This document shows positions 1 to 18,300 of a stretch of DNA of 50,857 nucleotides, piece after piece. Position 1 is the first letter of the stretch; every line of letters starts with the position of its first letter. A program made the translations under genes and the position numbers. Origin of the DNA: Heterotrichella gracilis (lineage: Eukaryota > Sar > Xanthophyceae > Tribonematales > Xanthonemataceae); NCBI GenBank assembly GCA_032358255.1, contig JAULBX010025730.1:6221-57077 (forward strand), read 5' to 3'. The notes beneath the pieces were generated by a model. The model had not been told where the DNA came from. It was given only the letters and a program-made list of their open reading frames with translations, and made no database searches.

Positions 1-282
1 AATTCCAGAGCACAAACCCTAACTTGTGGTTCCCAGGTCCCTGCTGCGGTTGGATGCCAAGGCGCTGACCAAGGACCACGCGGATAGGGCACCAGACTAC
101 CTCAATGATCTGCTACCCAAAAACCTACATTTATGCTGCCTTTGCACACATGTGTCACAAACCCTAAACCCTAATGTACAAATTCCAGAGCACAAACCCT
201 AACTTGTGGTTCCCAGGTCCCTGTTGCGGTTGGATGCCAAGGCGCTGACCAAGGACCACGCGGATAGGGCACCAGACTACCT
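1..282 (+). repeat. 180-bp tandem duplication containing an ATM exon start
   Basis: Bases 1 to about 101 recur almost unchanged at 181 to about 281, exactly 180 bp later. The unit includes intron sequence, the CAG acceptor (34-36 and 214-216) and the first two thirds of the exon. The first copy diverges after the codons for DYL and has no usable donor, so the second copy is the working exon. The near identity marks this as one of the youngest duplications in the gene. Confidence 0.9.
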
Positions 283-3200
283 GAGTGGCTTGCTGCAGGA
301 TGACAAGTACTGCGTGCGGGTGGAGGGGGCGCGGCTGGTGACGGTGCTGTTTGAAAAGTTCGATGCGCAGGTGGGTGGTGGTGTTGGCGGGTGGTGGGTG
401 TGCTGGAGGCGGGTGTTTGACAGGTTTGAGGTGCATGTGTGGCTGGCCAAACATTCCTCACTAGACAGCGCACCCTTTTCCCTTGTAAAGGAAATTGCCT
501 CAAGTACGACTTCGAAATTTGTAATGAAATGCAGATTGAGACAAAAACCGTCGTCTGGTGGAAAACACACACACAGATGCATGCCTTTTAACCGACCCCC
601 TGTGTCTCCCCCCCTCCTGCGCACAGTGACGCCTCTCTTCCTCCCTTTCTAGGTGGTATTTGACATCCTGAAGCAATCCCTGTGCCTCCACTCCTTTCTC
701 CTAGAAGACCAGCCGCACCAGGAATACATGGACACAGCGGTCATCACCATGGGTAAGGAACAGGGTTTAGTTTAGGGTTTAGTTTAGGGTAAGCTTGAGA
801 TCAGAGTAGGGTTTCTTTCCCCACTGGTGACGAGCCGCAGGATATGGATACAGCAGTCGTCACGATGGGTCAGGAATTTTCTAGGGTTTGGCAAGGGTTT
901 AGGTGTTCTTCCCCCCTAGCTGACCACCCGTGCCAGGATTATTTGTGGATATTCGTTGCAGGCTCCACATGTGAGCACATGCGTCCCGCTGCCCCCCGCA
1001 TCCACCCATTTTCTGCATTTCAGCCCCTGCAAAAGGTCAAATTTCCATTACAGAGATTGCTCGACACTGTACTAATTCCCATTCCTACCCCAATCCCAGG
1101 CGAAGCCGCCACCGCCTGTAGCGAAGTGGAGCTAGAGGCTGTGTACCATTTATGCGCACATGCGTCCCGCTATACCCACCCCTTATATAAGGAACGCCGG
1201 TGCAGTGCACCAACCTCTGCAGGAAACATCCAGTTTCTCAAAACTGCCCTAACTGCCACCTCACTTCATACTCCCCAGGCGAAGCAGCCACCGCCTGAAG
1301 CGAAATGGAGCTAGAGGCTGTGTATCATTTATGCGCACAAGCGTCCCGCTGCCCGCCCACATACCCATTTTTCCAGTTAAACACTGGAAAAAGGGCACAT
1401 TTAACAATCCCGTACCAGCGATTGCTCGACACTGTACTAATTCCCATTCCTACCCCAACCCTAGGCGAAGCAGCCACCGCCTGTAGCGAAGTGGAGCTAG
1501 AGGCCGTGTACCATTTATGTGCACACGCGTCACGATGTCCCCCCCAGCGGCCCCTGGTGGCGGCGATTTTGGAAAATGTGGCTGCGTCGCTGGGGTACCC
1601 CAGCCGGGGGGCCTATATGGCGCTGCACTGGCCCCGCCTGGTGTACCCATGGTTCATGCACAACATGACCTTGGCGCAGCTGGTGGAGATCCAGGTAAAA
1701 ACTCCAAACCCTATTCTCTGTATTTGAAACCCTGCTGCCCGCTGCTGTACACCCTAAATACCAGCCCCAAACCCTGCACGTGAACCCAATATGGCGCTGC
1801 ACTGGCCGCGCCTGGTGTACCCCTGGTTCATGCACAACAACACCCTGGCACAGCTGGTTGAAATACAGGTTCACCCCAAACCCTAACTTAGGTCACGAGT
1901 CTAAACCCTAAAATGATTCATCCAAAAGGCGCCACATATGTCAGCATCGTGGTTATGTGTAGGGGCCAGCTAAACTTATGCGTCGCCAATTGGAAACCAT
2001 TCGACCTCTGCTACAATCTGACATTAGCAAAAAATATGCGTCGCCAATTGGGAACCGTTCGGCCTCGCTACAATCTGACATTAGCCTGAACAATCACATT
2101 TGAGCAACGCATTTTCACACCCAAACCCCCACCCACCAACCCACCAACCCACCCACCACTCACCACCCGCAGGCGCTGCTGGCCACCTCCTCCGACCCCT
2201 CCCAACCCCCCCCACCCCCCTCTGCGTGGCTGGCCACCCACACCCCCCACCTGGTGCCGGTGCTGGTGCTGGCGGAGAGGGAGGCGGAGGTGGAGGAGAT
2301 TGCACGGGTGGTGGGTGAGTGATTGCACCGGGGGGGGGCGGGGGGTGGTGTCGTGTGCACAATGTTCATAAATGCTCTATGCCCTAGAGGGTTGATGTTC
2401 ATGATTGCCTTGAGCTTTGGGCTTTTGGGTTTGCGTGTTTTTCAGGAGGCCTGTTGCAGGGGCGGTACTCTTTTCTGCAATATGAATTGCCTTTCATTAT
2501 CTCCTCCCCTGTTTGCAGGCAAGGGGGTGAAAGAGCTGCTGGCGGGGTGCATGGATGCAGTGTTTGGCGCTGTCTACCCCTACCTCGCCACCGGGGAGGC
2601 GGAGGATAGGGAGGTGGCCAGGGGGGTGCTCAAGGGGGGGATAATAGCAAAGTACTTCAAACGTGAGTGGCGGTGGTGGTGGTGATGGTGGGCGTGGTGT
2701 GTATGGTACTCCACCTCTTTACCGAGGCCATAGGACGCTTGCCACACAAAAATCTCCAAACCACCACACTGCTCAATACTACACGCGGTAAAGCATCTCA
2801 TACAAATTGCCAACCCGCACACCCCCTCACCTGCAGACGAGGAGCAATTGAAGCTGTTTGACCACTGCGTGATCAAGGCCATAGGCCGCATGCTGCAACT
2901 GGGACCCCAATTAGATTAAATCCCTGAAAGCCCTCCGCAGTCCCTAAAAACACACGCAAAAAAGGTATCCTAAAAAGCCACCAGTTTGTGAGTGTCTGCC
3001 TCACAAACTTACACACCCTCGCCTGCAGATGAGAAGCAAATGAAGCTGTTTGAGCTCTGTGTAACCGAGGCAATAGGCCGCATGCCCAGCTTGCACCCCA
3101 ATGAAACGCCTGAAAAACACACCCCAGCACCTCAAAAATCAACGCAAAAAAACCCATAAAACGCCTGTCATTGTACACCCACCCACCCCCACACACACAC

Positions 3201-18050: not shown

Positions 18051-18155
18051 CCTGGGGGTGCAGGGTTGTGCCCTGAAGGATGGCAGCGCAGGAGCCCTCA
18101 GTGGATGCTGCTCATATATGGCCCACTGGTGCGCAGCCTCCCACTGCGGGTAGCG

Positions 18156-18300
18156 TCAGGTGGTGCAGGTGCTCCAGGAGGCACAGGACACTGAGAAGCT
18201 GGGCAGAACGTATGTGGGCTGGGCCGCGTGGCTGTGAGGGGCTGGGTAGCCCCTGAGGGATGGCAGCGCGGGAGCCCCACTGGAGTGAATCTCTGCCGAA
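18156..18300 (+). repeat. Downstream copy of the FATC end and 3' UTR
   Basis: Encodes [20 protein letters not shown] then WAAWL and TGA, and is followed by GATGGCAGCGCGGGAGCCCC. This repeats both the end of the working FATC exon and the sequence after its stop (18072 onward), 187 bp downstream. It lies after the true stop, so it is 3' UTR unless used as an alternative last exon. Confidence 0.87.

Follow-up and report, generated by a model that had tools for sequence, protein, structure and literature searches.

Gain in intron length has, in our view of the field, mostly been inferred from single cases. In potato, a duplication across an intron-exon boundary made a new intron (PMC4974935). As far as the account in that source goes, the 3′ part of an intron and the 5′ part of the exon that follows were duplicated side by side, splice signals included, in one event that gave a new intron together with extra coding sequence and had DNA and RNA read support. 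The Rogers/Hellsten model, as summarized in the same source, likewise makes local duplication a source of introns, through duplication of an AGGT-bearing exon segment (PMC4974935). Here we describe a 50,857-nt contig stretch of Heterotrichella gracilis (JAULBX010025730.1; hereafter the window) from an assembly of 68.5 Mb in 903 contigs, in which many exons of a predicted ATM gene, like exons of TOR genes elsewhere in the genome, have partial copies beside them. The parts duplicated in ATM and TOR resemble those of the potato intron, whereas dozens of events here appear to lengthen existing introns with the coding sequence unchanged, affect the starts and the ends of exons and come in two unit sizes. 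Compared with the Rogers/Hellsten model, the unit here already has a splice site, and the offset between copies (mostly ~190) does not equal the intron length (70–915 bp in ATM).

Two further systems come close in the kind of product that they give. Fill-in by CST/Pol-alpha with end joining at staggered breaks likewise leaves small direct duplications, there with a size that follows the overhang; the overhangs were induced and went down to 43 bp, and neither a pair of natural size classes nor exon boundaries are mentioned in the portion of the report drawn on here (PMC8355091). Units linked to the midpoints of nucleosomes arise in yeast from lagging-strand errors: the small inverted triplications of rad27 cells, as outlined in the source, have units of ~150–160 bp and are defined by a central inverted fragment (PMC13334657). 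No inverted fragment lay between direct copies in the four sequence sources in which we looked for one, and inverted triplication was rejected as a description of the events. Bimodal duplications that straddle exon edges were not reported in the titles and abstract openings found in the open-licence literature.

The ATM gene lies at 217..18050 on the plus strand, and its 32 exons (6,071 of 17,834 bp), with the kinase and FATC domains at the end, were read by hand from splice sites and open frames; the introns total 11,763 bases. The joined exons matched human ATM (6k9k) in a phmmer search with an E-value of 5e-106 and contained a PI3_PI4_kinase domain (E 2e-45) and, at the C-terminal end, a FATC domain (E 5e-14), and on these matches the gene is identified as the predicted C-terminal part of ATM. 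Self-alignments by blastn were filtered for a length of at least 40, an E-value of at most 1e-5, an offset of at most 450 and a dinucleotide entropy above 3.3, with second-order array offsets removed. They covered 217,340 bases of the genome in 18 sources, a sample that is not random: 13 one-per-contig stretches at a fixed position, four holding ATM-related kinase genes, and the window. Across these sources 72 duplication events were found, and since three dinucleotide-preserving shuffles of all 18 gave 0, 0 and 0 events, a chance origin is excluded. A second method independent of blastn, an ungapped diagonal scan, supported the same offsets. The copies are local direct tandem duplications, with exon parts in ATM ~75–99% identical between copy and exon. 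At least one copy was detected by blastn or the diagonal scan for 18 of the 32 ATM exons (19 when a weak 32-bp match at 15166 is included), which makes it fair to say, as a sequence-only reading of this DNA had done, that most of them have partial copies. Its wider proposal of recurrent local tandem duplication that remodels introns was borne out in ATM, in TOR (sources L030 and L032, identified by the FRB region with an E-value of 5e-42 to mTOR) and in L016, which by eye apparently holds two genes.

We consider it probable that these are real, recurrent, short tandem duplications of a unit comprising part of an exon and the adjoining intron, with the spare copy trapped in the intron, where it decays. 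Once a unit has been duplicated, splicing would take in just the copy that adjoins the remainder of the exon; the other would be trapped in the intron, which would gain one unit in length, and the trapped copy would then decay, while repeated events would build arrays. The unit would most likely originate by end-joining of a break with offset nicks, through fill-in and joining, or by a flap or template switch, so that the spacing of the two nicks or flap ends would fix its length. It is plausible that chromatin sets this spacing.

The position of the blocks is the first observation that this proposal draws on. ATM blocks typically run from the 3′ splice site into the exon, from the exon interior to the 5′ splice site or, in the last exon, across the coding end with the stop codon and 3′ untranslated region (UTR). 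A functional block crossed a coding boundary in 18 of 19 ATM events, one of them at the coding end/3′ UTR, and the remaining event lay wholly within an exon. The exon part carried by ATM units measured 19–161 bp, and all nine TOR blocks contained exon and intron together. A tendency of the units to be centred on splice sites was weak (exon part mean 83, standard deviation (sd) 28, vs. 98, sd 44, for random placement; Kolmogorov-Smirnov p 0.036).

The second observation is the divergence of the TOR copies. The nine TOR pairs differed at 51/310 intron positions (16.5%), at 21/288 codon positions 1 and 2 (7.3%) and at 21/144 third positions (14.6%), in counts summed by hand with the frame chosen by eye in the six pairs that had more than one open frame. 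TOR matches later supported four of these six choices, and the frames at L032 2508 and L030 3748 rest on the eye reading. The TOR copies include stops and frameshifting gaps, and their divergence fits one freely drifting and one constrained copy. Intron sequence is plainly duplicated in the TOR pairs and in three ATM arrays, and duplication of the entire unit or the greater part of it, intron sequence and all, was seen at 3011–3473 and 12945–13434 in the window, at 323/428 in L030 and at 2508/2624 and 2853/2985 in L032. By eye, with no null run, short matches at the junction were noted in 3 of 19 listed units (GGGC, GGCCA and TTTGCCAG/TTTGTCAG).

The third is the size of the units. For the 68 of 72 events with an offset of 60–260 bp, the distribution comprised two components, at 105 bp (sd 21, weight 0.59) and at 194 bp (sd 14, weight 0.41); a single mode was rejected (Silverman p 0.0025, 400 bootstraps), and none of the 68 fell between 146 and 168. 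Median offsets were 187 in ATM (n=19), 108 in TOR (n=21), 118 at the other loci (n=26) and 159.5 in the rest of the window (n=6); ATM differed from TOR (p 0.003) and marginally from the other loci (p 0.056), and TOR and the other loci did not differ (p 0.47). The two size classes, ~105 and ~194 bp, may reflect an unusual, locally acting mutation process by which introns grow.

Along the ATM gene the offsets counted by hand in the sequence-only reading were recovered to within a few bases, and the copies are given here with them, on the plus strand unless noted. A partial copy of exon 217–370 with its 3′ splice site lies at 1..102 (offset 180, pair 1/181, 99% identical); this pair opens at the first base of the window, where the 200 bases directly upstream (C322:6220 and upstream) read N, so that its outer half is hidden. 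Exon 1465–1694 is preceded by two partial copies, at 1100 and 1279, within 972..1358 (offsets 179 and 186, from 1095 on). Compared with the upstream flank of the exon, that of copy 1100 differs at 6/53 positions and that of copy 1279, which hardly matches, at 22/51. The 3′ end of the same exon and its 5′ splice site are copied at 1786..1885 (offset 174, 1612/1786). A four-copy array with a unit of 189–192, the last three copies of which share intron sequence, stands before exon 3577–3762 at 2819..3481 (offsets 192, 189, 189 and 171 over 2819–3652). Part of exon 4045–4242 recurs at 4307..4339 (offset 118, from 4189), and the start of exon 5321–5503, with its 3′ splice site, at 5108..5200 (offset 211, 5108/5319, blastn only). 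Both ends of exon 5897–6264 are copied, the start at 5711..5807 (offset 183, 5711/5894), with an in-frame TAG, and the end at 6322..6455 (offset 185, 6137/6322), with the GT of the 5′ splice site changed to TT. On the minus strand, 6619..6661 is an inverted copy of the exon segment 6199–6236; its intron also holds the direct copy, and it lies outside the direct pair.

Further along, the start of exon 7497–7761 is copied at 7291..7454 (offset 203, 7291/7494); that of exon 10388–10570, with intron, at 10109..10261 (offset 198, 10109/10307, blastn only); the end of exon 10740–10945 at 11102..11176 (offset 220, 10882/11102); and the start of exon 11829–11940 at 11707..11766 (offset 92, recovered as 92–93). 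A short partial copy of exon 12151–12350 at 11990..12030 spans 41 bp only (offset 188, 11990/12178). Exon 12816–13040 has a copy of its start at 12616..12709 (offset 176–178, 12616/12792), with an in-frame TAA and a 1-bp gap, and two copies of its end within 13143..13438 (offsets 198 and 193, over 12945–13434). Starts are also copied for exon 13771–13878 at 13575..13693 (offset 145, recovered as 145–146), exon 14332–14451 at 14241..14285 (offset 65), the catalytic-loop exon 16298–16474 at 16106..16199 (offset 184–187, 16106/16293) and exon 16962–17135 at 16753..16849 (offset 205, 16753/16958). The last exon, 17941–18050, has an upstream copy of its start at 17679..17731 (offset 260) and, at 18157..18284, a downstream copy of its end with the stop codon and 3′ UTR (offset 187, 17970/18157); this pair had been taken for an intron copy, but what it spans is the end of the FATC exon, with its stop codon and 3′ UTR. 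The minor offsets of 116 (at 719) and 58 (at 1962) were recovered as well.

Several results weigh against duplication followed by decay, and the first concerns events confined to introns, which should be harmless. Random placement of the same lengths gave 52% straddling and 37% intron-only events, i.e. 42% intron-only among the two classes, and by blastn 0 of 19 ATM events were of this kind (p 4e-5). In the diagonal scan the 33 ATM rows comprised 25 with an exon in one copy (3 of them second-order), 6 copy-copy rows within arrays and 2 confined to introns, so that the harmless class was again scarce (2/24, 2 vs. 22, p 4e-4); these two, 1962–2085 (offset 58) and 10167–10346 (offset 135), were the sole ATM repeats without an exon part in that scan. 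Low-complexity filtering was rejected as the cause, only three pairs having been dropped by it in four sources. Selection accounts for the lack of exon-only events, but not for that of intron-only ones. The absence of the latter implies either a process bound to the boundaries of exons or exon copies that outlast intron copies, e.g. through gene conversion. In the part of the window at 18300–43700, the 12,384 non-coding bases held no event, compared with the 19 in ATM (p 1e-6).

The second difficulty lies in how the ATM copies differ from their exons. Over 26 pairs, codon positions 1, 2 and 3 differed at 46/639, 40/642 and 145/640 sites, i.e. 22.7% at third positions vs. 6.7% at positions 1 and 2, and this ratio of 3.4 (95% confidence interval 2.6–4.3) exceeds what neutral decay of one copy would give; in slightly tighter blocks, 124 of 140 third-position differences were synonymous. 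Base composition was rejected as the cause. The TOR ratio was 2.0 (1.1–3.5), and the share of third positions did not differ significantly between TOR and ATM (p 0.13). A weaker three-base pattern, measured without regard to frame, was present in 26 pairs elsewhere (146 vs. 132 ± 4.9). The ATM excess may have arisen because the exon part underwent gene conversion, because synonymous changes accrue faster in the live exon or because the copies descend from a diverged allele. In 619 codons the ATM copies have 4 in-frame stops, alongside 9 gaps that shift the frame and 4 that keep it, while the matched exons are open; by our own estimate such numbers are consistent with neutral drift of roughly 6%. 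Thirdly, in most ATM pairs the spacer had no visible match to the outer flank, in spite of the well-preserved exon part, so that recent duplication of a whole 180-bp unit was rejected as an account of every ATM pair. An anchored comparison detected residual homology in several of them, e.g. 10189/10388 and 13627/13771. We read the pairs with unmatched spacers as older events in which the intron part was lost faster than the exon part, and this is the weakest link of our argument.

As to what sets the unit length, the sequence-only reading had proposed a nucleosome- or Okazaki-sized segment; on such a model, lesions or Okazaki-fragment ends would fall at successive linkers or dyads. That events straddle coding boundaries and go with telomere-like motifs was no part of that reading. 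The ATM median and the component at 194 bp agree with a nucleosome repeat, and most ATM offsets do fall at 175–205 bp as claimed. At the other sampled loci this is the minor class: the larger component lies at 105 bp, TOR offsets centre close to it, and the offsets, which peak near 187 for ATM alone, were bimodal for the pooled 217-kb sample. A length of 105 does not follow from the nucleosome repeat by itself, and a single nucleosome-sized unit is not supported. No helical or codon periodicity of note was present in the offsets (R2/n at most 2.3), which for the helical case speaks against nucleosome-set lengths, as does the lack of inverted-triplication structure in the four sources scanned, one inverted copy excepted. 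Unit length equal to the nucleosome repeat is possible but, in our judgement, unlikely. As a conjecture, unit lengths of one repeat and of about half a repeat would fit breaks at the dyads and linkers of exon nucleosomes. A fuller scheme would have a chromatin- and splice-junction-anchored mutation process drive intron growth, in which breaks or replication ends at exon-positioned nucleosomes give duplications of one repeat (~194 bp, dyad to dyad) or of half (~97–105 bp, dyad to linker), one end lying in the exon so that survivors straddle the coding boundary, and the lengthened introns retain AAACCCT motifs from telomere-type healing; we regard this scheme as speculative and quite unlikely.

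Telomere-like motifs mark the introns in question. In ATM, 7.8% of the intron sequence is covered by 6-mers from (AAACCCT)n, compared with 1.2% of exons, and introns rich in AAACCCT/AGGGTTT were seen at 1–18300 of the window and in L016, L030 and L032, with the AGGGTTT orientation most frequent in the first fifth of ATM introns. It is conceivable that breaks were repaired by the telomere machinery, with CST/Pol-alpha fill-in producing the tandem duplications and telomerase-like additions the motifs. CST-guided Pol-alpha fill-in has been described as giving small tandem duplications in mouse cells (PMC8355091), and interstitial telomeric repeats in mammals as marking break repair (PMC2246262), as far as these sources are drawn on here. 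Across 20 stretches, event density rose with coverage by telomere-like 6-mers (rho 0.76, p 9e-5), and in 23 ATM events the 30 bp on the junction side carried the motif at twice the intron average (p 0.009), with the motif present in 9 of 23 and absent from 14. When 48 hand-listed events from four sources were considered, however, the motif was not more frequent next to the junction than at the opposite end of the spacer, towards the splice site (0.169 vs. 0.236, p 0.11), so that its insertion exactly at junctions, hinted at in ATM, was not upheld. The link between motif and events holds between loci and may mark only intron content or type, and repair of this kind strikes us as doubtful. A further stretch, L033 (C10:140001-150000), holds several separated open frames of a kinase gene that we take to be SMG1-like from its catalytic-loop sequence; it had no exon-edge duplications, almost no AAACCCT and no motif enrichment.

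An assembly artefact, in which two diverged haplotypes were placed in tandem as a false heterotype duplication and the copies represent the other allele, is improbable on the present evidence. False exon gains of this type are documented, as that source outlines (PMC9516828), and the mostly synonymous third-position differences in ATM, the 17 of 26 ATM copies without a stop or frameshift, the mostly unaligned intron flanks and the first pair abutting N would all suit such an origin. The TOR copies, on the other hand, carry stops and frameshifting gaps and show a neutral 2:1 ratio of intron to non-synonymous differences, members of the array at 2819–3481 have intron sequence in common, and the offsets fall into two narrow classes. 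There is no N inside the window, and no second ATM locus, rejected as a source of the copies, was present among the best scored genome candidates.

We find it very improbable that the copies are functional alternative exon ends under selection. The third-position excess in ATM would be expected of them, splice sites are kept next to many copies, and differences were also uneven over codon positions in some copy-copy pairs, namely 13149/13340 (4, 2 and 7), 1100/1279 (1, 1 and 4) and those with copy 2837. Against this, the copies are partial and without a second splice site, they contain stops and frameshifts, and GT is lost at the 6322 copy. Copies 3026, 3217 and 3406 form three pairs (3 of the 6 copy-copy pairs of the array) whose differences spread evenly over codon positions, and the TOR pairs fit neutral decay. 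Introner-like mobile elements would suit the remodelling of introns in an alga, and many introners are predicted, in the source cited, to insert in nucleosome linkers (PMC9860276). They are scarcely credible here and were rejected, given that the copies derive from the adjoining exon and not from a dispersed family, that bases 1–3000 of the window gave, besides themselves, four local copies and three short matches elsewhere, and that a comparison of 19 ATM-window spacers with the window and with 13 loci gave two short matches for one spacer and none for the others.

Beyond ATM, the window at 18300–43700 contains seven long open frames, six of them alike and organized as minus-strand single-frame genes and the seventh a plus-strand armadillo-repeat gene, none with exon-edge duplications; in the one of the six that was scanned, at 29624–31498, LRR and F-box models matched just under the cut-off. 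The diagonal scan added four weak repeats there, all within long open frames. Six more events (102–214 bp) lie at 43700–50857, a region rich in the AAACCCT motif. Two of the fixed-position stretches, L009 (C1:30001-40000) and L012 (C100:30001-40000), have a G+C content of 37%, compared with 51–58% in the other eleven, and are possibly of different origin. The genome gave 43 matches to the chlorophyll a/b-binding family and has intron-rich genes, on which grounds it was taken for that of an alga.

Taken together, a single genome offers dozens of exon-edge duplications that have decayed to varying degrees, fall into two size classes and occur in certain genes but not in others. If reads confirm them, nucleosome maps and repair mutants could be set directly against the sizes of such intron-lengthening duplications, their preferred positions and the rate at which they arise.

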